Origin: Turritopsis dohrnii
Taxonomy: Eukaryota > Cnidaria > Hydrozoa > Anthoathecata > Oceaniidae
Assembly (NCBI GenBank): GCA_027922465.2
Contig: BQMF02000002.1
Location: 2,852,001-2,916,000 of the forward strand
Direction of reading: 5' to 3'
Length of the DNA: 64,000 nucleotides
The position numbers and the translations under genes were made by a program. The notes under the pieces were generated by a model, which did no database searches, was not told where the DNA came from, and was given only the letters and a program-made list of their open reading frames with translations. Below, piece after piece: positions 3,101 through 64,000 of the stretch (within the stretch, counting starts at the first letter, position 1; each line of letters opens with the position of its first letter).

Positions 3101-6100
3101 AAGAACCCCGTCGGTCTCTTTTTGAAGCCCTCAAACCAGCTCAAAGAAAGAATTTTAAAACAGAAGCCTAAAACAGGCTACAGCAGGCCTGGTCGTAAGA
3201 AAATTAGCAGGCGTGTGGTCATCGCACGCCTTAATTGACGATATCAGTTATGGCGTGCGCTCGTGTAAATTTTTGACAGATGTGCGATCAATTTTTTGCA
3301 GTTAAGATCAACAATCTTCATTCTGTATGATAATCAGACAAATTTGAAATGTGTCATACATGTTAAAAAATACTGTGATTTTCACGGAGAATGAATTTAA
3401 TAAAATAAAACACTAAAGATTCGGTACGTAAAAACTTAGCCATAAAGATTAGTTTGACCGTAAATAAAATTTATGTATATTTCTCCATTGTTTTGGTTTG
3501 AAGTTCAAATGGTTTTTGAATTAAATTAAAGACGTTTCCGTTCCATTAACTCATCACCACCTGGCTGGCTATTTTTTTTTAATAAAAGATTATTTTTTCG
3601 AAACTGCAACCTTGCGCATACTTTTGTAACTTTTGTAAGAAAGTTAAAAAGAAAGGGAAAACTACATAATACAATTAAATAATATATACATAATAAAATC
3701 GCACGCACGAAGCTCCTTCATTCCACAGCGGATTTCGCTGAGTAGACTTATTTTTACTACGAAACGAATAAAATTTGTGAGCACTGATTTTTAATTCAAA
3801 ACCACTACCGTATTCCAAATCGATCAGAGACCACTTCTGAAATGGTAGCAAAGTTTCGTTCCGTTACTGTAAAATTTAATCGTAGCACATGAACAATTTT
3901 CGAAGCAAAACTTTCAACATTTTGGGACAGATTTTCGTTGACTTTTAAATAAAAATTTGTTATCACACTTGTCATTACAAGCCAGGCGTGCGATTGCCAC
4001 ACGCGTAAATAAATCTTGGCGTGTGCGGAGGCGTGCGCGTGCGATCGCACGCCTCTTACGACCAGGCCTGCTACAGTGAAAATATGTTTTCAGTTTCATA
4101 CATACCTTCCCCCAGTCGGGTTTAATTTCAACGGTTTTTTTAGCATCTTGTAAGGACTTTTCGTAGTCACCTTTTTTAGCATAAGCAGCTGACCTGTTAC
4201 TGTAAAAAACATGATTTGTACCATCCAATTCTATGGCTTGTGTATAATAACCAATGGCCTCCTCAAACTTTTCTGCTTGTAATGCTTTGTTTCCTTTATC
4301 TTTCAACTCGTTTGCCTGGTAACGGTGAAAACAAACAATTAGTTTACTTCAAATACAAGCAAAGGTAATGAGATGCTCACAAACAAAATGACATATATAT
4401 CAGAATTGTTTGTAGAAGAGGTGCTGCATGTATAGCTACACTTTTAAGCTTGCTTCTAACTGTGCACTAACAATTAAATGGAGCAAAAAAATCAATCCTA
4501 AGCTGATAAAAAATTCTTAACTGTCATAGTGAGAATGTGAAAATTAACTGCTTTATCTGATCATTAACGAAGTGTTAACTCAAAAAATATCAGAACATAA
4601 AAGTTCTTAAGATCTTTTTTCTCTACTTTTTAAACAATGTCTTCAGCTAGTAAATCATGAGAAGTATGTTTTTTTTATCAAAATGAAAAAACCATGGTAG
4701 TTGGAAAGTGCTTTAATTGTATGAAGACTACAAAAAGAAATATGGTAATTACACATTGAGTGGTATGTGTGTTGTCATGATATTGATGAGATATTTACAG
4801 GGTATGAGTAACTTCAGAATTTACGAATAAAGACAAGACATAATAGAATAATGCATATATTGATTGCAAAGGAAAACTTCACAAAGGCTGCCATCAACTA
4901 ATTATGTGAGCAAAAAAACTTTGAGAATTAAAAAGGTTAAAATTTTTTGACAGCTGCTTTGTAACACTCAACACTCCACATTTGTGACGATTCAAAGGAA
5001 AACCACTACAAATGGTAATAGCACTTCATACCACAAGTGCTAATAGTGATAAAAGAATTTGTTTTCATTTATAAATGTAGTAATATTAGCGATAAATTTA
5101 GCAGTTGTAGTTTTCTCATTATTCAACATTACTATTATCGCCTACTATCTTTTGCCTGTTTTTACAAGCAATCAATTTCTCTGTTCCTGAAAGTTAGTTT
5201 GACCAAAATAATCAAAATGTCTTGATAAAAAACAGCTCCCCTTTGATATTTTAATGATTTTTTACACAAGTACGAAAATTCTTTCTAATTCCCATCTACG
5301 AGATGAAATAAAATTGATGAAAGGATTTTCTCCCAACATCTAATTGGCAATGACTACTGTACACTACGAATTGCATAAACTGATAAGTTTACACACACAA
5401 GCAGGGATTTTTCCAAGCACTTTCCAACTACCGTTTACCGGTAGTCAAAACTCAATCTTGAATTGAGTTTAGAAACTCAATCATTCATTGTCAATTAAAC
5501 ATTTTTTAGCTCTTTAATGCGAAGTATTTAAAAACATGTTCTGAGAAAGTAATAAGGCCATTATTCACCAGCCATCCTATTGCTAGGGAGAACGACCACC
5601 GTTGCTAAGGTAATTTTGAAATTTCTTTTGTTATACGCATTCATTTCTTCACCTTACGACGAAAGAATATGAAAACGAAAGTGGTACCAGTAGGACTCGT
5701 TTTCATGTTATTCAATGAAATTAAAAAATATTTTAGTTTCCAACTCCCTATGCATGCCTCTCATGACCTGTTTGTGGAGATTGAAATCTCTAAAATTGTG
5801 GAGCTTCCTGGACTGTAAAACTCAATCTTCTCTACGAAAAACGGTAGTAACCAAAAGTGCTTGGAAAAATCCCTGACAAGTAAACTTCAAAACCATAATC
5901 GAAAAACACATCGAAAAACACAGAACTATGAATATCTGAAACATAATGATTATAAACTTCATGTTATGACGAATGACGGTTTTGATTAAAAGGAGATTAC
6001 CAGCATGCCATGCCACTTTCTCTCTGGAGCACGAGGCAAATAGTGGGCCGGAAAAACGGCCAGTAATATTTAGTGAATATATTAGCAACAAATTAATTAT

Positions 6101-17972: not shown

Positions 17973-19008
17973 GGGACTTTAAGATTTCGAAAACGGGAAC
18001 GGGAACTTCATAATATCACTTGACTGTGCATGCGTGAGGTGATTTCCATGAAATTTTGAAGTTCGCTCTGTTTGTTTGGAACGTGAAATCACACATTTTG
18101 AAGTTCTGAGAAAACGTGAACGCTCAAGGAAGAAAGATGGCTGAAACTGCTGAGCAAAAACCACTGAGCATTCCACTGTCATGGCGCTTACCATCTGCAG
18201 GTCCAAATAAGTTTGAAATTAGACCATTAGGAGCTATTACTGATTGAAACTTTATTAAATGTACTCTTTTGTGCCCATTATAAACAATACTCTGATTTTC
18301 GTTTGGTCTACATATAGGTCTTAGGGTTGCATTTATGAAACCCCAGCATTTGTTCAATGGGACATCACTTTCGTACACTATGTCTGCAAAGATTTGGAGA
18401 TTCTTAGGTGATAGCCAGGGCTGATTCATATCACTCAATAAATGTCTCCATCGGTCATAAATTAGGCTGAAAATATGATTGTTTATTATACAAAGTTCAG
18501 GTACAGGCCTAGCAAACCTGTTCCATATCTGAGTATCTGCAGGGATATGCATACCTTTTCAAAAAACACATAGTGCCTCGAGGCCACACACATTCGTGCC
18601 ATTGTAACAAATTATTCTCTCAGGGATTTCTAGGGTTGTTCTGAGAATTGGAATATCATCTTTATAATAGTGAAATTCAGCCAGACACTCATCTTCAGCT
18701 AGATTATTCAAGCTGAACTTCTCATACCTCCAGTATGGTAGACACAGATTAGAGGATTTTTCTTAATCCAAAAGTAGTAAAAATTCTTCATCATCAATAA
18801 TTTTATCATAATGAGCAAGGTGTAAAAACTCTTTTTTCTCCATTATTACTGTTTCAGTGTTTCAGGCTTCTAAGTTTGTTTACAATTTAATGCGCCATTA
18901 TGAAGTCGCGCACTTTCTTAATCCCCGTTATTACACATAACCAGAACGAGAACCTAACTACGGAACAGCGTTCCCGTTCCCGTCCCCGTTATGAAAACTT
19001 AAAGTCCC
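17973..19008 (-). mobile_element. PIF/Harbinger-like (ISL2EU-type?) DNA transposon
   Basis: Inverted ends GGGACTTTAAG with a further GAACGGGAAC-type inner repeat, flanked by TA on both sides (17971-17972 and 19009-19010). It carries the broken Harbinger-type transposase listed separately. A 2-bp duplication rather than the usual 3-bp TWA suggests the ISL2EU branch or a related lineage; this is inferred. Confidence 0.75.
18124..18843 (-). pseudogene. Broken Harbinger-type DDE transposase
   Basis: A minus-strand frame starting at 18,843 has an in-frame stop after about 26 codons (LLLLD, stop) and another after LEALCVF near 18,557, with signs of a frameshift just beyond it (the family pattern YAYPCRYSDM appears in a neighbouring frame). 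It then runs to about 18,130 through PVPELCIINNHIFSLIYDRW, a GFINATLRPICRPNENQ segment and YNGHKRVHLIKFQSV, which fit the DDE_4 nuclease of PIF/Harbinger transposases (usual GFIDGT...RP). The expected first catalytic Asp position reads Asn (FINAT). The 3' part is missing, so it is inactive. Confidence 0.8.
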
Positions 19009-21160: not shown

Positions 21161-24100
21161 ATGTTAAATAAAATTAACTGGCAGGTTTTCTACCTTCTCT
21201 GTCAAATTCATGTGGTGTTTGTCGTTGACCGAGGAAACTTTAAAACTTGTGAACAGAGCAGTTTTTGTAGGTAAGGTCAATTTCCATGAAATTCATTGCT
21301 TTTTATTTCTATTGTTTGTAGTGAAAAATTCAGATTTTATGAAAACAGCTCGTTTTGCAGGCAAGTATTCAATATAAGAATTTGTCGTTGCTTCATTGTA
21401 TCAAAGGGAACCAATAATGCTTCTTCCTTTCCTAAAGTAATGACTAGTTAAAAGAGTTTTGATTGGAAGCAACAAAAACTAGATAGTTCGGGTTGCCGAT
21501 GATGCTTGTTTATCCTCTATTCTTAAATGAGGAATATCAAAATGACAAATGTGATTTGAATTTATGTTTCTAGACGTAACCGTGCTATTCAACCTGGGGC
21601 GTCTCCTTTTGCCATTTTGCCAGATACAGTAAAGTTTGAGGTTGCTAGTATATCATGCGACGTTTTCAATTCAAATACAAATGTCTCCTTTAAATTGACC
21701 ATTGATACATTGGAAGGAAAGACTGCTAGAATTCGTATGACTGAAGTGAGTCCAATACGGCCGCGATATTTCGTACAAGACTCGCTAATAAGGGAGCCAC
21801 ATCTTGTTAAGTGAGTTGGGAATATTTTTTGTTGTTTATTTTTCAAGTAGTAACAAATTATACTGTTCTGTCCAGTAGAAACTTATGTACATTCATTTGA
21901 AAATAATGTCTGTTTATCTTGAACAAATTTTAATGGTTCTGTTTTCCTAGATATCATACAGAAGCTTCAGATGATAAAGGATTCAAAGTTAAACATGAAG
22001 AAAACTTAATAGTTGTGACATATAAACCACTCAAAATAGATTTTTATGACAATCAAGGTGTATTGATAATCTCTGTAAACAACAAAGGTCTCCTCAATTT
22101 TGAGCATTACCGAAATAAAATGTAAGATTGATTTGATACGATAAGAGTTGTTATGACATGTATAGGTTCTAAGTTTCTATCAAAATCAATGGTTATCTGT
22201 TAGTATTAAAGCTGATGAGAAAGCTAGTGAAGAAGCACCTGCTGAAAACAGCGATACTGATGATAAACCAACTGAAGAAGAGGAGAAAGCTGATGAAAAT
22301 GTGGTAAACTATTTAGAAGCAATTATTTATAAGCATAAATAGTGATCGTTAATTGTAAGATTCGGATTTAAATGAATTGATCGACTGTTAAATGATGTGT
22401 GACTAGAGCCAAGTCTACCAATTAGACAATGTGCTATTTTTAGAACGTCTTTGATAATAATTACTATTATGGTGTCACATAATAATTATAGGATAATCCT
22501 CAGGTAGCTGCTGACGATGAAAAGGATATGTGGGAAGAAGATTTTAAAGAACACCATGATTCCAAACCATACGGTTCGTTTGTTTTTGAAACTTGAATTA
22601 TAGGTTTTATTATAGTTTTCTGTACATTTCCTTTCTGTTATGTCAGATTGCTTCAGCTTTTGAAACAGTTTCTTGCTGCATCCGTTTGAGGTCCTTGTTA
22701 TTTAGTTCCAATTTTTGTGGAAAGTTTCAGCTACAATGGCAGCACTGCCTTATGCCCCTAAAGCACTCTTATACTTAGCAAAAAACATACCTGTTTCTAG
22801 TCTTACTTTATCAAACAATTGTGTTTTAAAACTAAACTGTACGGTGGTCAGTTTATTAAAAATAATCATTGCCAGAGAACAAGTGATTTATTCAAAACAA
22901 CGTGATATGGATTAATGTAGTCAAAGAAAAATTGTATTCAATGGTAATGTAAAAAGGAAAATGGAAAAAGATGGTAGAAGCTGTAACATAACAAACAATA
23001 GATTTTATGGCTTATGGAAACTTGATTGTGATATTTTGTAATAGTAGCCTCACATGTTACCTGAAGTTACTGTTTATGTTGTTTGAAGTTCCTACAAGAA
23101 TACAACAGTCAGTTTAAGTATTAATATTTTTCTATACCCTTCCCTGTTTTGTTATTTAGGACCTAGTTCGGTTGGCCTAGATGTTTCATTCACTGGCTTT
23201 GAACACGTGTATGGTATACCAGAACATGCTGATTCACTCTCACTGAAACATACTAAGTAGGTTTCCTATCTCATGATGCTCTCTAATTATACATGAGATT
23301 AAAGTACGTTTCAAATGAACTTGCACAGTTTTTATAAATGCTTGGCAAATTTGAGGGTTATGAGATATTTCAAAAATTCTTTTTGCACTGTGTCAAGCTT
23401 AACTAGCACTATTTCATGATATAAAAATTTGGAAGAATAATGAAAATGGAAGAAGAAAAACGAAGATGAAAAAAACGAGCTTTTTATAGAAAAGAGCAAA
23501 ACAGCTCATTTTTTTGTGAGACAAACTTCAATCTTTGATCGTTCAAAAGGCGAAATAATATTTCAAAAAAGTGAAATAGATCGCAAGACATAGTGCTTTT
23601 TAAGCTTGACACAGCGCAAAAAGAATTTTTGAAATATCTCATCATCTTCAAATTTGCCAAACATTTATAAAAACTGTGCAAGTTCATTTGAAACGTACTT
23701 TAGTTACACAGTAAGATTATTCATAGAAGTTCTTCTAACTTTGATACATTGTCATCCTTACATTAAGATTTTGTAAATGCTTAGTTTACTTTTATGTTTT
23801 AAAGAGATCTTGTTTACATTCCTCATTATACATGTGTTTTTATTATATTTTAGTGGTGGTGATCCTTATCGATTATATAACCTGGATGTATTTGAATATG
23901 AGTTAGACAACCCAATGGCATTGTATGGATCTATTCCTTTCATGGTTGCTCATAACGTACACAAAACAGCAGGTGTATTTTGGAATAATGCAGCTGAAAC
24001 ATGGATTGACATCTCATCTTCGAAATCAGTTCTCGGCACATTGATTTCATTTTTTAAAACACCTGACGTTCCAGAAGTCGACACACATTGGATGTCTGAA

Positions 24101-27100
24101 AGTGGTATTATTGATCTGTTCATATTACTCGGACCTAATCCACATGATGTATCAAAACAGTATGCTGTACTTACAGGAACAACCACTTTACCTCCTGTGA
24201 GTAATTTCAATCTTTTATCTTTATCTGTGAGTATGTGAGACTTTGATTTTTCTCTTAGTTCTTGTTTTGTTTTGTTTGTGTGGTAGAGTTTAGGTTAGGG
24301 AGTGTTTATAATGTATTTGCTAACTTTTTGTTATGTATAAGTGTCTTTCATTCATTTGGTAGAACAGACAACTTAGGATTTTTGTCACTTCAATAATTTT
24401 AATGTTGCTGCTTTAGATGTTTGGGATATCTTACCATCAATGTCGGTGGAACTACAACGACGAGCAGGATGTGCGGCAGGTGGATGCTGGTTTTGATGAA
24501 CATGACATTCCATACGACGTACTGTGGTTGGATATTGAGCATACCGATGGCAAAAAATACATGACTTGGGATAGCGCAAAATTTCCAAACTCAAAAGGGA
24601 TGATTGAAAATATTGCGTCCAAAGGCAGGAAAATGGTTACAATTATTGACCCTCACATAAAGCGTGACAGTGGCTATCACATCCATTCCGAGGCGACAGC
24701 CAAGCAACTGTATGTGAAAAAGAAAGATGGTAGCGATTATGAGGGGTGGTGTTGGCCAGGTTCATCATCTTGGATTGACTTTACTAATCCTGAAGCTAGA
24801 GCGTGGTGGGCAAGCAAATTCTTTCTGGATCAATATCAAGTAATGCCTAAATTCACTTTTCCTAATTTTATTGATTCACTTGTTATGAATTTAATCTATG
24901 CATGTTTATGTTTTGTAACATAGGGTTCCACGTTAAATTTGTTTACTTGGAATGATATGAACGAACCATCAGTTTTTAATGGTCCTGAAGTGACTATGCA
25001 CAAAGATGCTGTGCATTATGGGAACTGGGAACACCGTGACGTCCATAACCTTTACGGAATGTACTTGCATATGTCTACTGTTCAAGGACATTTACAAAGA
25101 TCTGATGGAAAGGAGCGACCGTTTGTATTGTCTCGAGCTTTTTTTGCTGGTACTCAACGATACGGTATGGTTTTCTCTTGATAGAATTGAACATGCTGTT
25201 TTCAATTATGTTGCACGTTTCTTCTGGTTTCTTTTCACATATCTGATGTTTAGGGCCGATTTGGACCGGTGACAACAAAGCAGAATGGTCTCACTTAAAA
25301 GCCTCAATTCCAATGCTCTTGTCATTGAATGTTGCAGGGTTGCCATTTTCTGGCGGTAATTACTTCTATGTTTTTCAGCTAAGCTTTTCTAATGTTATGT
25401 TACTTAAAATTTCTCAAATTATTCAAATTGTTCAGCTGATGTTGGTGGATTTTTTGGTAACCCTGAAGTAGAACTACTTGTGCGTTGGTATCAGGTATGG
25501 TGATTGGGTAAAAGGAGTATCCTCTTCTTCCTTACCTTTATTGTTTATCCATCATAGCATGTGCCACCTTATTGCAATTTGTCCTTGTTATCTGCAGGCT
25601 GCAGCTTTCACACCATTTTTCCGTGGACATGCTCACCTTGATACAAGACGCCGTGAACCTTGGTTGTTTGGTGAGGAGAACACCAAACTGATTCGAGCTG
25701 CTATCAGGAAACGTTATGCTATCCTGCCTTACTTGTACACACTATTTCATGAAACATACGACACTGGTGTCGCTCTCATGAGGTTAGCGTCTCGTGATAT
25801 CTGCTACACTAAACACTCATGAAACACTTTTTTACAGTCAGTACTTCTTTTCTACAGGCCACTGTGGATGGAATTTCCAAAAGACACGAAAACTTTCAAT
25901 ATGGACGATGTGTTTTTGCTCGGTACCAGGCTATTTTTGTTTAATTTTCTTTCATTTCTGTTGTGTCAGCAGAACAAGGGAAAATGCAGTGTCACCTACC
26001 GTAAATAACGAAATTAGCGCCCCCTGCCGAATAACCACCCCTGCCCGAATAAGTGCCCCGGGATAAGAGTATTTTTTTTCAATAAGCGCCCCTGCCCCAA
26101 TAACCAAATAATAATTTGAGAATAAAAAAAATAATAATAGATATAGTTATTATAGTTGTTATTTAAATGTAATCATTGCCTCAAAGAAATTCAGTCCTGT
26201 AAAGCTTGAAAGGAATTTCTAAGAAGCCAACTTTCTTGACAGGAAAAGATACTGATCCATTTCAGCTTGATGAAATCGACAGCAGCACCTGATGTCCTTG
26301 TTGTCGATTCTGACCATGAAGAAGACGTAGATATTGACATTTATTTTAATTTGGCATTATTTCGGACATACGAAAAATAAAAACATTAAAAAAATATATT
26401 TTCCTTGTATTGATATGAAAATTTAATAAGCGCCCCTGCCGAATAAGCGCCCCCTCTAAAGGTTGAAATTTTAAATAAGCGCCCCGGGCGCTAATTTCGT
26501 CATTTGCAGTATCCTTGTTTCTTGGTTAAATAATTACCTTTTTATTTTTGTAAACAACACACATCGATATTCAACTTTAACACGAGGTGGATGTTCTCTC
26601 TGTTTCAGGTGGTAGTTTACTCATCAAGCCAGTCACTGCCTCGAGACAGGATGACGTGCTGCTGTACTTCCCTGGTGGAGAACGACAGGTGAGCATTATC
26701 TTAGACGAAAAATCGATGAGAAATTTTGAACTGAAGTGAATGAGAACTGACTTCGTTTTTCGTTTCAGCGTTGGTATGATTTTGACACATTCCAACTCCA
26801 TTATGGTGGGAAGTCAGATGTCATCCTTACACCGTTAAGTAAAGTATGTGTATTTGTGATCGTTACTGAAGCTTTTATCCTTCCTCTCCAAAGACTGTTG
26901 ATTTTAACTAGGCTGTCATCTTAACTTCTTTAGATTATTTTATCACTTCTCTTGACGTTTTTCTTAACCTTCACTGACTTTGATTTCTGTATGCTAGATA
27001 CCTGTTTTCATACGTGGTGGCACAATCGTACCGATCAAAGAACGTGTGCGTCGTGCATCATCGTTGATGAGTCGAGACCCGCACACATTCGTTATTGCCC

Positions 27101-27454
27101 TTGATGAACAGGTAATTCATGAAATATATGTTGTTTCTTTCTTCTTAAGTGGCGTATACTTGAATGTGAGAGTTATAAGTCTGGTAAATGAACCATTTGC
27201 CCGCTTGTGTTACTAGGGAGAAGCCGAAGGAGATTTGTATATCGATGATGGTCATTCCTTGGAATACAAGAATGGTAAATTCATCACTGCCAAGATATCT
27301 ATGAATCCTCAAAGTATTATGTATTGGTGAGTTCATCGTATCGTAACGTTGTTGTTGTTGTTGTTGTTATTGTTGTTGTTGATGATGATGTTGTTGTTGT
27401 TGTTGTTATTGTTGTTGTTGATGATGATGTTGTTGTTGTTGTTGTTGTTGATGA

Positions 27455-27492
<38 letters not shown>

Positions 27493-27985
27493 ATGATGTT
27501 GTTGTTGTTGTTGTTATTGTTGTTGTTGATGATGATGTTGTTGTTGTTGTTGTTGTTGATGATGATGTTGTTGTTGTTGTTGTTGTTGTTGTTGATGTTG
27601 ATGATGTTGTTGTTGTTGTTGTCGTTAATGACGTTGTTGTTAATTGATGCTTTCGTTTCAGGACTACTCACAGTGACTTCAAAACGAAATCTTGGGTGGA
27701 AAGAATCATTGTGTTGGGGATGGTGAACAAGCCATCATATTGTACTGTTATGTTAGATAGTACGTCCGTTTTTTTCTGATAACTTCATACGGATTGGTTT
27801 CTGCTCAGATATTCGGATCCAATCTTTGTTGTGTTGCCTGTTATCTATATTTTTCTCTGCTTTTTTTTTCTCTCTCAGACGATATGAAAAAGCTGGATTT
27901 CACATATGACGGAGATAAACAGTTACTAGTGATCAAAAAGCCCGTACCTTACGTAGACAACAATTTCACTATCACCATTGGATGA
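21161..27985 (+). CDS. GANAB: Glucosidase II alpha subunit (ER alpha-glucosidase, GH31)
   Basis: Trims the inner alpha-1,3-linked glucoses of N-glycans in the ER, feeding the calnexin cycle; works with the beta subunit PRKCSH. Nineteen exons: 21161-21270, 21574-21810, 21951-22121, 22204-22303, 22492-22573, 23160-23256, 23854-24196, 24417-24839, 24924-25164, 25254-25355, 25436-25494, 25598-25782, 25858-25922, 26609-26688, 26769-26843, 26998-27111, 27217-27326, 27662-27759 and 27879-27985. They sum to 2799 nt, 932 residues (human about 944). The start gives a signal-peptide-like run (hydrophobic [13 protein letters not shown]) leading straight into the family's [15 protein letters not shown]. 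An acidic linker lies in exons 4-5. The GH31 nucleophile Asp is in WNDMNEP (exon 9) and the acid/base Asp in WTGDN (exon 10). Intron 13 holds a MITE and intron 17 a long TTG microsatellite. Confidence 0.96.
23302..23700. mobile_element. Fold-back MITE in GANAB intron 6, probable TA duplication
   Basis: Arms of about 110 bases (23,302-23,415 and 23,590-23,700) are imperfect inverted copies, beginning AAGTACGTTTCAAATGAACT. TA flanks both ends. About 400 bp in total, without coding capacity. TA duplication fits Tc1/mariner-type mobilisation, but that is inferred only. Confidence 0.7.
25998..26511. mobile_element. MITE with AATAAGCGCCCC arrays in GANAB intron 13
   Basis: Ends are inverted (AACGAAATTAGCGCCC and complement), flanked by TA. 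Next to each end are several tandem-like units of AATAAGCGCCCC or CCGAATAAGCGCCCC. The middle (about 26,180-26,380) has a short plus-strand stretch ending acidic ([12 protein letters not shown]), like the tail of a lost transposase. About 514 bp. Confidence 0.65.
27344..27640. repeat. TTG/TGA trinucleotide microsatellite in GANAB intron 17
   Basis: About 300 bases of TTG repeats, interrupted by TTA and GATGATGAT blocks in a higher-order pattern of roughly 35-75 bases, which shows duplicated segments. It sits between the donor at 27,327 and the acceptor at 27,661, so it is intronic. It creates long but meaningless frames of Val, Leu or Asn. Confidence 0.95.
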
Positions 27986-29062
27986 TTATGACGTAATTTT
28001 TTGTATGAGATTTCGTATTGGCTTATTTATTAGAGAATTGTTGGCGATAAATGTTTTTTTTTTTTTTTTTTTTTTTGCGACGTATCTTGAAGTTTTTTAT
28101 GGTATAGTGACAAGTATCAACCAATACTTCGTTATGAGCTTGTTTGTTTTTTAAAGAAAGAGAGTTGATCTTCGGTTTTTAGAAAAATTCATTCATATAT
28201 ATACATCATCATTATGTCTTGTATCTGTCTCGTGAATAATCGCCCAATTAGTGAAACGGTCATTTAATGTTGACGGGTTGTTTTGACGTCGACTGAATAG
28301 ACTGCTAATGCCGACGTATCGTTCTCACGAATGGATTGTACGAATTCACTGTTGCGCATGTGCGGAGTTTAATAGCACGTGTTTAGTAGTTCAAAGATTT
28401 TCGTGATGTTCGTCTGTATACACGAAAATTATAAATCATCAAGCAATTGGTTTTCTTTTGCTGGTGTTGAAATATTATACTGATTTTTCCTCGAATGTTT
28501 CCATTCACGCAATCCATTTGTAAGAACTGTTAAAATCTTCGACCAATCGCATTTGAACGAATCAGCCGATGGTGTCACCAATTTTATTTCTTAGGTTCGC
28601 AATTTTCGAATTCAAAAAATGTGATGTATCATAACGTTCTGTAATTTCTTTTTGACTTGCTAACCCGTGGTCTTTGAGCTAAATTTCCACTGAATCATTG
28701 AAGTTCAAAAGTAAACATTTGGACTAGGCCAGCGTGTGAATCCAGCCTTAAGGACAGTCGACTGTTGAAGAAAACTACCTATTTGCGTATTTGATGTGAG
28801 GGTTCATGCATTTTATATGGTTAAGTCTATGAGTATATTCATGTGACAAATTGCAACCATTACAAACACTTACAAATACATTTGAACAAATGAGGCTAAG
28901 CCCTCACTAACCCAGACACATTTCACAAGGTTTACACCGTAAAGTCTGATGGTTGCAATTTGTCACACGAGCTATAGGAAAAATATGTTTTTGAAATTAC
29001 CTTGTTCATTATAATTCTTCCAGAAAAGTTTAATAATAATAATAGATGAAAAGTATCCTCTG
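27986..29062. other. Intergenic: GANAB 3' end to the RING-fusion gene
   Basis: Includes the GANAB 3' flank with a 20-plus T run near 28,054-28,077, and a 124-bp palindromic MITE at 28843-28966 (see its own entry). The stretch 28,990-29,062 should include the 5' leader of the next gene. Otherwise nothing recognisable. Confidence 0.6.
28843..28966. mobile_element. 124-bp palindromic MITE
   Basis: Perfect 18-base inverted ends, GTGACAAATTGCAACCAT at 28843-28860 and its complement at 28949-28966. The interior shares about 35 bases (CTCACTAACCCA... ACAAGGTTT-CACC, with a few differences) with 63,022-63,056, beside the retrotransposon at the right edge. Target duplication unclear. Confidence 0.65.
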
Positions 29063-31391
29063 ATGACGTCATGCAAATCGTGTTGTGTGATTGGTACAGG
29101 TTATATTGGCATTCGAATCGCAGGTAAAAGTTTCTCGGTATGTCTTGTGTGAAATAGGATGAGTGACGTCAAACGTAACTAGTGGTCCTTGTCATTCTCC
29201 CACTCAATATTTTCCTTGTTGGTATTATCGTGTTTTTTGTTCAATTATTGAAAAGTATGTTAACGAAAGTATGTTATTTGTAGGTGAGCTGTCGAGGCTT
29301 GGATTACCTGTAAACGTGTATGACAGCGATTTGGAGAAACTGAGGAGGGTGCCTAACATCTTGCATAATCAACACAGCGAGTTGTTAGCAAGGCGGCTAT
29401 GTCATCCATCACAGAAAGTAAGTTCCTGTGGCAACTGAAATTCGTCTTCTTTTATGGTACTAGCCAATGATCAACGCTTATACACTTTTCGAAGAGTTTT
29501 GTTTAGCAAGATGTTTTAAGACAAGTTGAAGAGAAGGTGTAAAGTGGTCTTTCAGAAGTTACTTTCTATTTCAGCTACAAGTAAGAATCTGTGAAACGCT
29601 TCTCGAAGCTGTTGAAAATGTCGATTTTATTTTCGAAGCGGTGGTGGAGAATTTGGATATCAAACGGTGGCTTTTTCAAAGTAAAATCATCTCTTAAAGT
29701 TCTTCAAAATAAACAAATGTGAAACGATCCGTAAACACGTCATTATATCTTAATTCACGTTCGCATAAAAATGTCACTAAAAGAATCTCTAAAGTTTAAC
29801 TATCATTCTGCTGTGGTTAGAATTCACGTCGTCGGAGTTTTAACGCATGTGTCGTTTATGTTTTTTTATACAGAATTGACGAACTGTTGTCGAAGCTATG
29901 CGATCATATGCAGCAACACTTTGAATCTCGATTTGAATCAGATGTCGGAAGAAGCTCTATTCAAGAACGTAAGTAAGCAAAAACATGGCCGAGAAAGCAA
30001 ACACCTATCAAATATTTTCTGTTCGATTCTTTTCTAGAGAATAGTTGGATGTCGTTTCCTCTTCCCGGTTTTCGCTATTCCGATTGTTGAATTGACGACA
30101 GCAAGCACAACGTCACCAGAAACCGTCGAAACATTGTCGGCGTTTCTCGAAGGAATCGGCTACGAAGTTCTTAGACGAGGAAGCATACCAAAGATGCTTT
30201 CTGAAGCCGACATAAGGCGGTATTGGAAAGGTATAAAGAAAGAACGTCGTTATCGACAGTCGTTTCACAAATTACCAGATGGCGTCATAGCGCTCGTTCT
30301 TTTTGAGTTTCTTAAAGTAGACCTCGTATGGACGGTTACATTTCTTTTCTTTTTTAAACAGAAGGTAAAGTGAAGACACAATCGGCCGACAACACGGCGG
30401 ACCTTCAGCTATCTGTTAGTCACGATTTTGCGTGTGTGAGTAATCTTGGTAAACAGACTGAATGCGAGGTGGCACGTACAAACTGTGAAACGGTGCAATC
30501 CATAGTTGGTATGCATAATGATAGGACTTTATCAGCGGTCGAAGATGACATTCAGAATCGAACTCGCGATACAAAGCAACTTTATGCTGACTCGGCACGC
30601 TCATACGCCCCGTCCACGAATGATACGATCAATGAACGTGCAAAGAAAGACACTGATGAACTTATCGATGTCCATAACATGCAAACCAAATCCGGCCACT
30701 ATACGCAAATTAAAAATCCGAACAGTGCAAACGCAGACGGAGAAGTTGATGAACTTATTGATGTCCATAACATGCAAACCAAATCCGGCCACTATACGCA
30801 AATTAAAAATCCGAACAGTGCAATCGCAGACGGAGAAGTTGATGAACTTATCGATGTTCATAACATGCAAACCAAATCTGGCCACTATACGCAAATTGAA
30901 AATTCCAGCAGTGTGACCGCTGACAGAGCAATTAATGAACCTATGGATGTTCATAACATGCAAACCGAATCCGGTCACCACACGCAAACTGAAAATCCGC
31001 ACAGCGGTAACACCGACAGAGCAATTGATGAACTTGTCGGTTCTCACAACAAGCAAAGTGAGGCTGGCCACTGCAGTATGTCTGAAAGTCAGTCTGGAGG
31101 TTTGAGAACTAGCAATGTTATTTGTAATCTCTTGTCCCTCCAATTGAGTTGTATTGAGGTGATAAGTGGAAATGCCTAGTAGTCACGTGACATTGAAACA
31201 TCTTGTCTTTGTTTTTAGGTAGCCAATCAGAATGCGTAGTTTGCAACGAGCACATAATCGACACCGTCCTTTTACCGTGCGCCCATATGTGGTTGTGTCA
31301 CGGCTGCGCGTTGACGCTCAAAAATGCTGACAAGACCTGTCCCGCCTGTCGGCAGCCTATCAAATCTATAATACGCGTCTTTAAACCTTGA
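29063..31391 (+). CDS. 3-hydroxyacyl-CoA dehydrogenase-like NAD-binding domain fused to a RING finger
   Basis: Seven exons: 29063-29123, 29284-29417, 29575-29680, 29874-29968, 30038-30230, 30362-31099 and 31219-31391; frame intact, 499 residues. Residues about 5-165 match the N-terminal domain of the HADH/lambda-crystallin (CRYL1) family: Rossmann motif VIGTGYIG, acidic residue after strand 2 (NVYDSD), VDFIFEAVVENLDIK, ICSNT and IPIVEL. Catalytic positions are changed: the Ser after SNT is Leu, and the His of the usual GLHFFNP reads Arg in GCRFLFP. The C-terminal dehydrogenase domain is absent. A long polar region follows, with five 31-residue repeats, then a C3HC4 RING (CVVC, PCAH, LCHGC, CPAC) ending 12 residues before the stop. 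Likely role, inferred: an E3 ubiquitin ligase with a pseudo-dehydrogenase sensor or binding domain. The exon 6 donor is ambiguous (31,100 or about 31,122). I know no named gene with this layout. Confidence 0.82.
30655..31099 (+). repeat. Five-copy 93-bp coding tandem repeat
   Basis: Units start at 30655, 30748, 30841, 30934 and 31027, exactly 93 bases (31 codons) apart, so the frame is kept. The unit starts DELIDVHNMQTKSGHYTQ. Copies 1-2 are almost identical, copy 3 close, copies 4-5 progressively diverged. Polar, with no Cys in the first four copies, and predicted flexible. It lies between the Rossmann-like domain and the RING. Confidence 0.95.
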
Positions 31392-33348
31392 ATACCGAGT
31401 CTTAGAAAAGAACGGTTTCTACTGGGAAATGGTGACATGTTCATGGTGCGCCATGTTGAAATTTGGTAAAAGATGGGTGGAGTTGAACAACATGAAATAT
31501 TCACGAAAGACATATTTACAAATAACTTAAAACTTCTAATAAAAAATTCGTTGTTATTTTTTGATTTTTTGTTCAGTTCTTCATATCAACGATTCCTCCC
31601 AGTTTCCGAAATTCCGAAATGCTTCTTCTAAATCTAAAACGAAAAAATGTGTTTGTATAGCTTTTATCATTTTATTTTTGTATAAATGTTATTTTTTTTT
31701 GTTAATGAATAATTTATTTAAAAACAGAAAGAGGTTAGTTTCTTTTTCGACTTTTTTTGTCTATAGAAATCAAGTATTACCCACCAAACAGGAGAAAAAC
31801 CCTTTAAAAGCTAAATAAATAAAACGGGATTAAAAAGACGGGCCAGAATTGATTTTTCACTTTACTTTGCATAAACTGCAAGTCTCGTCTTTACAAAACG
31901 TTTAAAAAATGAAAAAGGGGGTTGAAAAAGGAAAGAAGTCTTGGTTATTGAACATCTAAGGACTTATTTATTACTCTTCGTCAATAACAACACAAGCAGT
32001 ATCTGCACTTGCGACAGGTTTAGCGCTGTTGCTTTTACTTTGAGAAGCGATCGTATGTCGGCGGTGGAAGTATCACAGTTTCTCTTTATTGTTTTTTGCT
32101 CTTTTCCTTTATGGGAAGTAGACTTTGACTGAATCATATTCTCAGTTGCTGGCGCTACATTGACCTTATCTGAGAGAAGGATAAGACCAAAGATAAATAG
32201 ATGTTATTCCATAAATCTGCTTTTTCCATTCCAACTAAAGTTTGTACATACACAGGTACTAAACTACGTGTTTCCCGACTTTCGATTTTATTAAATTTCT
32301 TGCATCCGCAAAAATTAATTCCGCAAAATCTCTTTTGAGGTCTTCATCCGCAAAAATTTATTCCGCAAAATATGGCATTTTTGGGTCATTCATCCGCAAG
32401 AATATATTCCGCAAAAATATATTCTACAAACAATTTCTTCCGTATGAAATGCGTATGAAATTTTAAAATGATGCGATAGCACATTTTTTAAAATTGTTAC
32501 GTTGTTACACTAGGTTGCAGTACTAGGTTTTGCGCTCTATGTTATGACTTGGTTACTGACAAAAAAAGCCCGTGTACATGGATTGTTCTTTGATGTTGAA
32601 ATTAAGAGAGAGGATTACCTGTTTACCTGATATTTGGTGTTGTTGTTTGGATAGCTATCGAACGAATGTGTTTTCAAAGGTTTTTAATCAAACCTGGAAG
32701 ACTTACCTTCAGGTAACAGCGCCTCGTTTACATCATCTGGTAAAATTTTTCGTGCCTCAGATAAATTTTCTCGTGATCGCTCTAATATTGATCTGATGTG
32801 AGAGTTGCTGAAAAAATGTCACGTGATTCCATGAGGTACGGCATTTTTTTCGTAAACAAACAAACAAACAAAAAGTGGCTAATAGTGTCTAATACATCAC
32901 AAAAAACTTTTCCTTGTTGTTACTGTAAAGAAAATCCCACAATGCAATCTATGTTGAAATCCCACAATGCAATCTATATGATAGTCATGTTCGGTAACCT
33001 CAAGCAGTGTCTGGATTTTCAATAGAATAATTGACCATGGTCATGAGGACCGAAAGTTGCGTGTGAAAGTCATCATCAATGTGTTTGTTTCCTGCAAGTT
33101 TTGAGGGGCTGCTTTCAGATTGAAGTATTAAGAACCCCCTGAAACTTTTGGAAAAATATTTATAAATAGTAGATTTTAAGGTTAGCAAACTCGATGACAC
33201 TTCGTGCAGTCCGTAACACCTGCCGTGCTGGTTATCGAATGGCCTTAAGATATGAGGAGATCATAAAACTCTTATTCTTTCCGACATTTTAGTGATTTTC
33301 TTGCATTGTATTGCGACATGAAGTAAAAAAGGATATATCAACATTTCC
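31392..33348. other. Convergent intergenic region between the RING fusion and the membrane-protein gene
   Basis: No gene supported. At about 32,304-32,425 a motif of the form ATCCGCAAAAATTTATTCCGCAAAA recurs about three times with drift, an old tandem or transposon-end repeat. Near 32,936-32,975 a 20-base segment (ATCCCACAATGCAATCTAT-like) is duplicated. The rest is plain AT-rich sequence, including the 3' flanks of both genes. Confidence 0.5.
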
Positions 33349-56524: not shown

Positions 56525-57024
56525 AATGGCTAATCTAAAAAAAAAACGTGGTCATATTATTTGTAATAATGGAGGGTAATACTAACAAGTCTTGGCACAT
56601 GTGCATAGAAAAAAGTAAGTGTTAATATTAAATTTCTGATCAAAATCTACTAAGGTTTTAATAATTTCTCTTACTTGATGATAAACCTGATGTTGATGAT
56701 GGTATTAATGCTGCCTGTTCAACACTGTTATCCATTGCAATTACACACCTCCACCTCCAGCTAATAACTTAAGCTGTGAACATCAAATAGCAAAGGGAAA
56801 TTTAGTTAATTGGCTTTATATTGTTGATTTTTTGTTTGTTTTACATTCAGGAAATTGATCACTTCCACATTTTTTATTTGTTTATTTATTGTAGCGCTCA
56901 GCACATTATCTGTAGTAGAGTAAATTTTACATTCTAAATTCTATACCAGATTAGACATCAAACGCTAGGGTACAAAACCCTATCATTGCGAAACGTCTCC
57001 CTCGGGGAATTTTGTTCTTTCAAA

Positions 57025-60000
57025 ATGGCGGAAGAAACAAGACGTCGCGTGATAGAAACTGAAGATGACGAAGATTCAAAATTGGTTTTCGAAACATCTG
57101 AAGAAGTCAAAGTCACCAAGACTTTTGACCAATTGAAACTTAGGGAAGATCTCCTTCGTGGAATCTATGCTTACGGTAATTTTCGCTTTCTTCTATAAGC
57201 TTTTTCTTGAAGAATAAGGATAAGTGTCAATCGAGCGAGCGAGGTACGATCTTTTTTGCTTTGAAACAGATGAAACAAATAAAATATGTTGAAAAACAAG
57301 TGTGAAAATTAGCTGGTCATATAACGGTGCAAACAACTTTTTTCATTTTTATTTTATTTTTCGTCTTGTTGTTTTTTTCTTCCAAAACAAGTTAACTTTG
57401 CCAGAGCAGAGCCAGAGGAGTTCAAGAGTTGCTATTTTTTTTTCGCACCCGCCACTCTCCGTCGTCCAGGATGTTTTAGGGCCAGGGTTAGGGTTATTTT
57501 TTATCTTTTTATTTTTTATCTCAGCCAACTAGTACAAAAATAAGGCAGATACATTTAGGAGGGGGGTGCGAAAAGGAAATAGCACCGGAGTTCAATCATC
57601 AATAATAAAGATTAATAATGAATTTGTATCGCAAACATGAAAAATAGCATCCTTTAAGATTGGCAACATAATGGACAAATGATAGAGAAATTAGAGTGAT
57701 TGCTTCGTTGGCTAATTATTCTTTTGTTTTTTGTTTTTTTTTTCCAATTCCTGTCTACCAAATGATCAGATCAGAAAAATGTGCACTCATTTGTTATGGG
57801 AAAGAAATAAAACAATCAGTTTTTTTGTTTTTTTTCCTGTCTGCAGAAATTTTTGAGAAGTGGAAATTAACCTTAAAAGCCTTCTAAAAATCTAGACAGA
57901 CACAGTATTTTCAGATAATACAAGGGAAAAGATGAAATAAGAAAAGGAAGTGGGATGTTTAAAGCATTAGTTAGGAAGGCTGTCCAAGTCAGTACAATTG
58001 ACAAGAAAATCATAATTAAAAACCCGTCAATTAAAAAACCAATCCTTGAAAAATTGTTTTTTATGGCAGTTTGGATAAAGACAATTACAATTGCTGAAAT
58101 TTTGAAATTTAGACCCTCTAAAACAGCATCTACAGCCTCTCTTAACAGTATTTTTGTTCAGTGATTTTGTAGAAAACAACGTTGATCATTGAGATTTCAG
58201 GCCTTAATTGTAGCGAAAAGAAGCCTTGGGAACCATATTGCTGAGTTTTTTGTAATATCTTTCGTGAAAGAGTTAAACCATCGTTTTTAAAAAGCTTTTG
58301 TGCAAATCCATCTTACATAAAATATAACTTTCAAAGAAAGCAAAAATGACGTGTTTGGTCTGAAACAGATTAGATGTCTATGTCTGGTTCTGATGATTCT
58401 GATGATTCTTCTAAGTCTGAGAGCGTATATTTTGAGATATCCACAGCAACGTTTGAATTATTACCGGTCTTCCTTCGTTTAGCTGGATACTTGTGTGGCT
58501 TCATGGCAGATATCCTGTACATTTAATTTTTTTTTACTTTACTCCCGCACAGATCTTTTTCTAATGTGAATTCACTTCAGTTTCCCATTCATGTACCATT
58601 TTCAACGAAACAACGAACAACAAAAACAGACATGATTTTTTCAACTACATTGAAAAACTATTCGTTTGCACAGAAAAATAGTTTTGGGAGGCTACCGCCT
58701 CCCAAATTATTTTTCTGTATTAGCCCCTGATTAATCAGGTCTTCCTTGTAATGGCAACCACAAAAGTGTTTTTACACAACTCTTATATAATTTAGGTAGT
58801 ATATTTTCACACTCTTTAAACAAACTCATTTGAATCTTCAGCTTGTCTGCTAATTCAGTGATTGTACCAAGAGAGGAGATGCATTATTTTTTTAAATGTG
58901 ATAATACCGACAGACAATTAAAATTTTTAATAGAAATAGAAATCTGGGGCCCATTTCATACCTCCTTTGAAGTGATGCAATACACAAAGAAAACCTTTTC
59001 CTAATTGAAAGCCGGTTTTAACTATGCCTGCCAATGGAAATAGTGATTTGCATACACAGTTTCGTTACTTTTTTGCCCAATCAGATTAATTTGTCTTAAT
59101 GAAATAACACCATGAAAAAAGAATTTTTGTACCATGAAAACCTAATGATAAACATTAACAAAAGGGAAGGTTTTCAGGCTTGTTCTATGGTAGTGAGTCA
59201 AGAGATGTAAAAGGAAGATGTGAAAAAGATTACAATGAAAACAATGGTAGGATTATAAAATGGATGTGTGGGGTTAAAGTAACAGAATATCTGGGATAGA
59301 GAAACAGGTTGCTATTAAATATCTTAAGAGAACACAACATTGGGTACTGGCATGGTTTGGTCATCAAGAAAAAATTGAAAGTAATGGTTTGTTGGTAGTT
59401 TTGAGGGGTTCGACCTCAGGTGACTTGGAGTAAAGTAGTAAAGAAAGATTTAAGAAAAAAGAAAGTAAAAAAATAGTTAAGGATAGGACAGTATGGAAGG
59501 CAGTGGCCAGAATCCATCCAACAGACATTAAATCAGGTAACATAAGGATCATGGTGACAAGTTTCTTAACTAATACATATTATTAAGTGCTTACCTATTT
59601 TCTGTAAATTACTCTGTTTCAATCTTTTGGGGACATGAAAAAAATTCATTTCTTCAATTTTGTGTCCTACTCTCTGATCATATTTTTCTTCGTAATGAAT
59701 GGCTAGTTAAAGCAATTTTGAATACAAACAGAGTAATTTCTTTCGTCACTAATATAATATATATTTACTAGACTGATTATCTGCTGTTTACACACATAAG
59801 AAATTAAATGGTTAATTAGGATTTATAAACTCAATTAAACTAGATCTTTTATAATCATCATGAATAGTCTTTCGTAAAATAGATTATAGTTTGTGGTAGT
59901 TGGATTATGTTGTCTACTCTGTCTTTGTTATGAATACCACGATCACTGTTTACTATGTTGTAAAAGGCCTATAAACATGAAATCGTTTTAATGTAATAGG

Positions 60001-62290
60001 TTTTGAAAGACCATCTGCTATACAACAACGAGCAATCAATCCAATTATTAAAGGCCGTGATGTCATTGCACAGTAAGTATTTTTCCAGTTTAATACCAAA
60101 TTACATGATCATTTTTCAACTGAAGATAAACTTATCTTTGTTTTTCCTAGAGCTCAATCAGGTACTGGAAAAACAGCCACCTTCTCCATCTCTGCACTGC
60201 AGCAAATCGACACCAGGGTTTGTCACTATCTTAGATATTTCTCAAGATATTTCTAATTATATATTTGCATCACTTGAACTAAATTCTTGTTGGGTTTTTT
60301 TTTCAGCTGAGAGAGACACAAGTTCTTATCTTATCACCAACTAGAGAATTGGCCGTTCAGATTCAAAAGGTTTGAAATCTTTCTTCCACTATAATGTAAA
60401 GAGGTCGTTGTCTCATATTCTTTATCAAATAACAATAATGATATTTCAACTACAACGAATGTCTGTGAGCTAAGAGTATCTGTCATTACAAATAGCCTGT
60501 CAGGAAATTTCAATGTACAGTAGGCTTTTTATTGGCTGTATTCAAATCTCGTATGTATAATCCAGGTTGTACTTGCCCTTGGTGATTATATGAGTGTACA
60601 GTGTCACGCATGTATTGGTGGAACAAACATTGGTGAAGATATCCGAAAGTTAGATTATGGTCAACACATTGTCTCAGGAACGCCTGGACGTGTTTTTGGT
60701 ATGTAAACCATTTTTAACACGCTACACGTTTTTAGGTTTTGTCAATACTCACGCAACGAGTATCGTTATTTCTCAGATATGATCAAACGACAAAATCTGC
60801 GGACCAGATCCATAAAAATGCTTATATTAGACGAGTCAGATGAAATGTTGAACAAAGGTTTCAAGGAGCAAATTTATGAAGTTTACAGATATCTACCTCC
60901 AGCAACACAAGTATAGTGATCTAAGTTGTTTTATGATTTATGTGTTCTTTTCGTTTGACAGTAGAAGGAATAATCTGCGCAAAGTGGCCATCGAAGATGT
61001 TTGTTAAAATGTAGCCATTATGCTGTGGCAAACCTGTACTTTTTCTTCACGCTCTCCATCACTTGTGCTTTGTAGGTGGTTTTAGTCAGTGCTACTCTTC
61101 CCCACGAAATCTTAGAAATGACGCAACAATTCATGACAGATCCTATCCGCATCCTGGTCAAACGGTACCTCATCATCACTTTTATAGAGTTTTCTATACT
61201 GTCTGTTGTTAACTGTTGGCTCATAACTGTATTTATGTTGTTGTTGTTTTAACAGTGATGAATTGACGCTGGAAGGTATCAAGCAATTTTTCGTGGCAGT
61301 TGAACGTGAAGAATGGAAGTTCGAAACATTATGTGACTTGTATGACACGCTGACCATCACGCAAGCTGTAATCTTCTGTAACACCAAGCGTAAAGTCGAT
61401 TGGCTTACTGAGAAGATGAGGGAGGCGAATTTTACAGTTGTGTCCATGCATGGTGATATGCCGCAAAAAGAGCGGGAATCCATTATGAAGGAATTCCGAT
61501 CGGGTTCGAGGTAATCTCGTTAAAACTACTTGTTTGGATGCGGATGTTGGTTTTGTCAGCATTTTGTCTTATCCTCAAAACGGGTTTTCCGGTTTCTAAT
61601 TGGTTGTTTTCTAGTCGAGTGCTTATTTCAACAGACGTGTGGTCACGTGGTTTGGATGTGCCTCAAGTGTCGCTTGTAATCAACTATGATTTACCGAATA
61701 ATCGTGAGTTATACATTCACCGGTAAGATATTCAACAGACTTCGTTATTAATTCCTTAAATTCCTGAAATCTAGTAACTTTATTTTGTCATCGTGTACAT
61801 GCAAATTTAACCTGCAAACAGATCCTCTTTGTAGATACGCCCACAAAATGTTACGGGCATTCGTCTAACTATCATGCCATATAATTTTCACTTGATCGAC
61901 GTTAATTTTTTACTTAACTTCGAGATCTGCGTTTTCATAAACGTTGTTCGCAATAAACATTTACGTTATATGCAGCATACACTAATGCATCGCCATTTTC
62001 GCTTTTGCACTTTACACTTTCTCGCACTGAAATTATTGTTACATATTTCAACCATTCTTAGTATTGGGCGGTCTGGTCGGTATGGGCGCAAGGGTGTTGC
62101 AATAAACTTCGTGAAATCCGATGACATTCGTGTTCTCCGTGACATCGAACAGTATTACAGTACACAAATCGATGAAATGCCGATGAACGGTTAGTATATC
62201 GATTTTATAGGACAATACTTTTTGTTTGCACAATCACACGGCAGACGAAATATATTGTTATTTATCCTTTTAGTTGCCGACTTGATTTAA
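57025..62290 (+). CDS. EIF4A3: EIF4A3, exon-junction-complex RNA helicase, with altered DEAD motif
   Basis: Core ATPase clamp of the exon junction complex. Eleven exons: 57025-57175, 60000-60072, 60151-60217, 60307-60369, 60566-60698, 60777-60910, 61076-61164, 61256-61510, 61615-61722, 62062-62189 and 62274-62290; 1218 nt, 405 residues (human 411). The N-terminus [18 protein letters not shown] and C-terminus DEMPMNVADLI are EIF4A3-specific, not EIF4A1/2. Motifs: Q ([12 protein letters not shown]), I (AQSGTGKT), Ia (PTRELA), Ib (TPGRVF), II, III (SAT), IV, V and VI ([13 protein letters not shown]). Motif II reads DESD instead of DEAD, motif V VWSRGLD instead of VWARGLD, and the residue before GTPGRVF is Ser instead of Ala; all three Ser use TCA. 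Intron 1 (2.8 kb) contains a MITE, a hairpin and a LINE relic. Confidence 0.95.
57426..57586. mobile_element. 161-bp Mutator-like MITE with 9-bp duplication (EIF4A3 intron 1)
   Basis: Direct repeats ggagttcaa sit at 57417-57425 and 57587-57595. Inside, the termini are inverted copies around TGCTATTT--TTTTCGCACCC. A 9-bp duplication is the hallmark of Mutator-like elements. No coding capacity. Confidence 0.7.
58370..58504 (-). pseudogene. 44-codon acidic-tailed small frame, probable transposase-tail relic
   Basis: Starts [15 protein letters not shown] (basic, nuclear-signal-like) and ends [17 protein letters not shown]. The basic-then-acidic plan is the same as the transposase-tail relics at about 14,750-14,876 and 17,300-17,400. 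It is intronic and antisense to EIF4A3. It may equally be chance. Confidence 0.3.
58671..58717. other. Strong hairpin with 4-base loop
   Basis: CAGAAAAATAGTTTTGGGAG.. pairs with its near-perfect complement across the loop TACC; about 21-22 paired positions with one or two mismatches. In EIF4A3 intron 1. It may be the end of a small transposon; no CTRR sequence follows as would be expected for a Helitron. Confidence 0.7.
59165..59540 (+). pseudogene. Non-LTR retrotransposon reverse-transcriptase C-terminal relic
   Basis: Broken plus-strand frames read [35 protein letters not shown] and DRTVWKAV in the order typical of the C-terminal region of LINE-type reverse transcriptases (WMCGV, RWFGHV, GRPRKTW, KDL, DR..WR). 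Stops and frameshifts separate them. Inactive, in EIF4A3 intron 1. Confidence 0.75.
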
Positions 62291-63200: not shown

Positions 63201-63240
<40 letters not shown>

Positions 63241-64000
63241 TATTTTGACTTAATATTCTTGCAGTAGCACGGTCAAAATAGTATTTCTTTGCATCGCTGC
63301 AGAACTTGTCATAATTAGTTTCTCGTCTTAATGGCTGCGGAAGTTCATTGAATCGTTTGCCTGCGACATAGCAGAATGATCCTTTGATATTGCCTGTTTC
63401 TACTTCCAGCATTCTGTTCTCGTTTCCGCGAAGGTTTACCGCTCTCGTTGACTTTCGTGTAAGCTGTAAATAAATTGGCCAGTTGTCTGATTTGTATAAC
63501 GACTTGTGAGCAGCTTTAACGAGAGAAAAAGATATTCTTTCCTCGACTGGTAGCCAATGCAGGGTTAGTACGTCGTTGTCATTGCAGTATCTGTTGTAGA
63601 TAAAGCTGGCGGCAGAACGTTGAATTTTTTGTAAGCGTTTAATTAGGTAATCAGGTGCATCTGCAAAAATGAGATTGGCATAATCAATTTTCGCAAGAAC
63701 TAGAGACTGCACCAGCGACTTCTTTACGTTGAAGGAGGCAGATCTTTTGAATTGTTTTAAAGATCTGAGGGTTGCCAAACAAGATTTTAGAACTTTGTTT
63801 ATGTGGGTATTCCATGTTAGATGCTGATGAAAGTGCACACCAAGTATCCTGTATTCTTCTAGATATTCAATTGGTTGACCGTTGCTGGAACGTAAAATAT
63901 GTCCTTGACTGTGAAAATTGTGCACCTTCGCCATTTTTGGCTTTGAGAATAACATGGCTTTTGTTTTCTTTGTGTTAAGGTGAAGATTGTTTTTATGTGA
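63061..64000 (-). mobile_element. CR1/jockey-type LINE, 3' end, running off the right edge
   Basis: On the minus strand: reverse-transcriptase coding end, then an A-run of about 30 (63,207-63,237), about 130 bases of 3' UTR with AATAAA, then an (ATT)n tail at 63,061-63,080. The short microsatellite tail is typical of CR1/L2-like elements. Its 5' part lies outside the window. Confidence 0.8.
63236..64000 (-). CDS. Reverse transcriptase C-terminal region of a CR1/jockey-type LINE (partial)
   Basis: The minus-strand frame is open from the right edge to a TAA at about 63,236, over 240 codons with no breaks, so this copy is fairly young. It starts in the LNTKKTKAMLFS segment just after the catalytic palm. 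It continues through YRILGVHFHQHLTWNTHINK, LKSCLATLRSLKQF, IDYANLIFADAP and LTLHWLPVEERISFSLV, the thumb and C-terminal region of CR1/jockey-clade enzymes. The palm motif FADD and the endonuclease would lie beyond the window. Clade assignment is by memory. Confidence 0.85.

Follow-up and report, generated by a model that had tools for sequence, protein, structure and literature searches.

The window analysed here is a stretch of 64,000 nucleotides from contig BQMF02000002.1 of the hydrozoan cnidarian Turritopsis dohrnii, and the gene under study occupies positions 29063-31391 of its forward strand (coordinates throughout are those of the window). Its seven exons, separated by GT-AG introns in every case, splice into a single frame of 499 residues, in which Pfam recognises an N-terminal Rossmann domain of the 3HCDH_N family (residues 8-176, 110.3 bits) and a C-terminal RING (residues 445-492, 53.8 bits); the intact seven-exon, 499-codon gene joining both domains, as proposed by a first-pass annotation of the same DNA, is thereby confirmed. 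The combination of domains is genuine and conserved, with no description of it in the literature searched, and the product is best regarded as a putative variant form of RING E3 ligase.

Broadly, the first five exons encode the Rossmann domain. Exon 1 (29063..29123) carries the start codon, which agrees with the start of the relative P0001 presented below, and the GxGxxG loop (residues 11-16, 29093-29110). Exon 2 (29284..29417) contributes Asp34 and the family-specific GELSR helix, exon 3 (29575..29680) Lys95 and the sequence FEAVVEN, and exon 4 (29874..29968) the SNT motif together with Leu117, which replaces the catalytic Ser; the domain ends in exon 5 (30038..30230), with Cys137-Arg138 (30050-30055), the Arg of which replaces the catalytic His. 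The linker is encoded by exon 6 (30362..31099), for which 31057, 31087 and 31099 are candidate 3' ends; the donor at 31099 fits the consensus at 5/9 positions, and the other two, of the same phase, at 7/9 each. Exon 7 (31219..31391) holds the C3HC4 RING, the C-terminus and the stop codon, with the linchpin Arg487 at 31350-31352 and Phe497 at 31380-31382. The first AATAAA-type hexamer 3' of the stop, at 31538..31543 (+), is a candidate polyadenylation signal by motif match only. About 40 bases 5' of the start codon, a good 3' splice-site-like stretch (29010-29024, forward strand) ends in TTCTTCCAG, where a 5' untranslated exon or a spliced leader may join.

The same architecture was found in three further proteins. 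Among about 5.8 billion proteins, 18 were reported at E<=0.001 with the window protein as query, two of them with both domains, P0001 (404 amino acids, 1.4e-77) and P0002 (324 amino acids, 8.8e-21); the remaining 16 have no RING among their listed Pfam domains. No additional member appeared among the 16 proteins reported by a search with a three-member alignment, scoring in both searches being limited to the 7997 candidates sharing most words, so that members may be missed. Residues 96-206 of P0001, chosen to avoid words common to dehydrogenases, returned two of 51 candidates, P0001 itself and the new P0023 (394 amino acids, 5.8e-23). In P0001, P0002 and P0023 the 3HCDH_N domain precedes the RING, as in the window protein, and Pfam confirmed both domains; over the Rossmann domain they are 52% (P0001), 47% (P0023) and 35% (P0002) identical to the window protein, and over the RING 60%, 60% and 38%, respectively. 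Each was read from a short intronless stretch (longest contigs of 1444-1588 bases), as would be expected of transcripts. The bacterial and archaeal relatives comprise 21 loci, in which the match is confined to query residues 1-197, the dehydrogenase part, a RING not having been sought in each; 104 pattern matches to viral sequences yielded no confirmed relative.

A tree of the Rossmann domain separates the four fusion proteins from 38 enzymes as a single clade (support 100/99), with P0002 on a long branch that raised a program warning; faster tree building recovered the four together at 99 when four long enzyme rows were removed, and the other three at 100 when P0002 was. The enzymes comprise 19 of the 20 database proteins, the domain picker having discarded P0018, and 19 of the 23 loci entered (L015, L016, L018 and L019 were dropped; L003-L006 were not entered). 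This suggests a family of conserved proteins of single origin, comprising at least four sequences. In this sense, the "unfamiliar domain combination" of the first-pass annotation holds in part: no paper describing the fusion was found by title and abstract start in literature searches whose coverage excludes most subscription papers, but the gene is no one-off. The single paper in which 3HCDH_N and RING both occur (PMC10830740) deals with fruit-fly larvae. Unnamed entries of this architecture may well exist in annotated animal protein databases.

Within the genome itself, P0023 as query gave 14 matches: four lie in the present gene, covering Rossmann exon 5, the RING and two parts of the linker, three are ordinary HADH-type frames, and seven involve only the RING end of the query or, in one case, C475 (query 300-388), that end together with part of the linker. 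Among these seven, and the two that were read, L032 and L033, are RINGs at the ends of other proteins. No second copy of the fusion was seen in the genome with this query, by which short exons are easily missed and five of whose RING-end matches were not fetched. A genome search with PF02737 (3HCDH_N) listed six places and missed the present gene, which has short exons; for this reason it was not used to exclude paralogues. Two intronless HADH-type frames, L002 and L003 (G000 contigs C21 and C64), encode an identical protein over their shared length, and are recent duplicates or uncollapsed haplotypes.

The Rossmann domain retains the fold of a dehydrogenase without its catalytic residues. The catalytic His is Arg in all four fusion proteins, and the catalytic Ser is Leu, Phe, Leu and Ile across them, both residues being kept in 38/38 enzymes. 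Pfam detects no 3HCDH C-terminal domain in the window protein at E<=1, nor in P0001, P0002 and P0023 at E<=0.001. The terms of the earlier annotation, a pseudo-dehydrogenase deprived of its C-terminal domain, are thus well supported: of an active 3-hydroxyacyl-CoA dehydrogenase, the window protein has the Rossmann domain for nicotinamide adenine dinucleotide (NAD), and has neither the catalytic His and Ser nor the C-terminal 3HCDH domain. HADH and the 3-hydroxybutyryl-CoA dehydrogenases combine 3HCDH_N with 3HCDH, whereas the window protein lacks the latter and carries a RING. CRYL1 (L-gulonate 3-dehydrogenase) is likewise a two-domain enzyme without a RING; it scores under HADH by profile comparison (54 versus about 80 bits), is placed over it by fold comparison, and is about level with it by single-sequence comparison. 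NCBIfam offers no better name, matching dehydrogenase models only, far under their cut-offs. The dinucleotide-binding signature has been retained, GxGxxG, Asp34, Lys95 and Asn115 being invariant in the four proteins, and these residues lead us to favour, by a modest degree, NAD(H) binding by the domain. Control of the ligase by a ligand, the sensor role suggested in the first-pass annotation, would be allowed by the kept nucleotide-site residues, from which the reading is drawn, and is less likely than not.

The RING belongs to a type known from ubiquitin ligases. All eight zinc ligands, in C3HC4 spacing, are invariant in the four fusion proteins, and zf-C3HC4_3 scores above its Pfam cut-off in each; the linchpin Arg past the last zinc Cys is also common to the four (Arg487 in the window protein), and an aromatic residue of the C-terminal tail is in register in three (Phe497 in the window protein, Tyr in P0001 and P0023). 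Modelled alone, the predicted fold superposes on the RINGs of MDM2, cIAP and MEX-3C. The dimeric C-terminal RING E3 ligases MDM2, cIAP1/2, MEX-3C and IDOL resemble the window protein in zinc spacing, linchpin Arg, fold and an aromatic residue two positions ahead of the C-terminus, but differ in their N-terminal domains. For the whole P0001 model, the best 50 VIA-align rows contain no RING chains, the list being taken up by one domain, and none of the best 60 of 116 PDB matches has both domains. The zinc-ligand spacing, linchpin Arg, tail aromatic and predicted fold support ligase activity of the window protein indirectly and make it quite likely.

Between the two domains, exon 6 contains a tandem repeat of a 93-bp unit (31 residues, 4.2 copies, 30654..31039, forward strand) carrying an HNxQ motif, which occurs five times in the window protein, twice in P0023 and once in P0001 (three proteins scanned). 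By eye, the fuller motif is about [I/V]D-x-L-[I/V]-x-x-H-N-x-Q-T-x-x-G-H-x-T, only its first half being present in P0001. Local alignment of the window and P0023 linkers scores 132, a value that none of 1000 shuffles reached (their maximum was 73), shuffling favouring this score by breaking the repeat order; the genome search with P0023 also recovers the window linker at E 1.9e-5 and 3.5e-5. The window and P0001 linkers score 64, matched by 5/1000 shuffles, and those of P0001 and P0023 a non-significant 41, matched by 191/1000. In the P0001 model a short helix (320-332) lies over the motif, with a block predicted local distance difference test (pLDDT) score of 53, the surrounding stretch being mostly <50. 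The simplest reading is that the motif is probably a docking site of variable copy number. A likeness to tau repeats was discarded as chance (a single match at E 0.0023, four copies at 4 bits each), and the window protein has no tubulin-binding Pfam match.

From these data we propose, with a probability of about 0.6, that the gene product is a homodimeric ubiquitin E3 ligase in which the dead dehydrogenase serves as a recognition or sensing module, probably holding NAD(H). As MDM2 and cIAP1 do, it would form a pair through its C-terminal RING, which would bind E2~ubiquitin, Arg487 and the C-terminal Phe497 positioning ubiquitin for transfer. A ligand or client would find family-specific conserved surfaces at the face of the original active site (Cys137-Arg138) and along the GELSR helix, and a flexible linker with one to five copies of the putative docking motif would connect both domains. 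Several points weigh against this proposal: the tail aromatic of P0002 is out of register; the methods disagree on the nearest RING subfamily, sequence pointing to MGRN1, Foldseek to cIAP2 and IDOL, and VIA-align to MEX-3C and MDM2; there are RING proteins that lack ligase activity on their own; and the equivalent of HADH Glu110 is Asp in two of the four fusion proteins, which may weaken the nucleotide site.

The last point, together with the loss of catalytic residues in all four, would also suit an E3 ligase whose Rossmann domain is purely a protein-interaction scaffold, its dinucleotide motif kept for folding and no ligand sensed; nonetheless, a pure scaffold need not retain the GxGxxG, Asp34, Lys95 and Asn115 that stay invariant despite the catalytic changes, and we hold this to be rather unlikely. 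A mode of action in which the Rossmann domain takes active 3-hydroxyacyl-CoA dehydrogenases as pairing partners, so that the ligase sets how much of them is present, is improbable, as the C-terminal domain, the dimerisation surface of HADH, is missing, and HADH is mitochondrial. An enzyme of altered mechanism, with Arg138 in place of His, is very improbable: Arg138 is invariant and Glu150 retained, but Ser and the entire C-terminal substrate-binding domain have been lost. The erroneous joining of two adjacent genes, to which the weak exon 6 donor (31099) and a stop at 31177-31179 reached by read-through might point, is dismissed, along with chance, by the same domain order in three further proteins, the identity across every exon and the kinship of the window linker itself with that of P0023. 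That stop makes a RING-less isoform possible.

Upstream, on the same strand, 23777-25819 holds fragments of a gene of glycosyl hydrolase family 31 with mutarotase-like and TIM-barrel domains, which we take to resemble glucosidase II alpha. In the same window, 56938-61723 (forward strand) contains DEAD-box helicase exons (Helicase_C at 61227-61511), presumably, by eye, of an eIF4A3-like protein. On the reverse strand lie a tetratricopeptide-repeat exon (TPR_1, 3917-4348), which by eye resembles SGT, STIP1 or another co-chaperone, a frame with a weak transposase match (18127-18558; DDE_Tnp_4, 22.6 bits, under the 24.8 cut-off) and a 254-residue frame running past the window end (63239-64000), by eye resembling the end of a long interspersed nuclear element (LINE)-type reverse transcriptase, with no Pfam match. 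Just 3' of the gene, at 32298-32424, units of about 42 and about 15 bases recur in tandem and contain the phrase ATCCGCAAAAAT. At 27279-27734, a long simple-repeat stretch leaves frames of >110 codons open on each strand, which probably do not code for protein.

Turritopsis dohrnii is the life-cycle-reversing jellyfish, a trait to which nothing here links the gene. To our knowledge, few E3 ligases read metabolites directly, MARCHF6, which is not known to have a Rossmann domain, being one reported case. More speculatively, and on balance unlikely, the fusion proteins may constitute a soluble E3 family with a dead 3-hydroxyacyl-CoA dehydrogenase as NAD(H) or acyl-CoA receptor, in which metabolic state would choose the proteins to be ubiquitinated and the copy number of the linker motif would set client docking. 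The idea of a metabolite-sensing E3 has a precedent built from unrelated parts, since MARCHF6 is reported to be an NADPH-sensing E3 (PMC9583509); the analogy, which is no more than that, lies in reading a nicotinamide dinucleotide, and MARCHF6 differs in being a membrane E3, an abstract naming the endoplasmic reticulum. If the proposal is true, metabolites would be read by a dehydrogenase fold that is still recognisable, has replaced catalytic residues and is fused to a ligase module of understood mechanism, and both halves would therefore be testable by standard assays.
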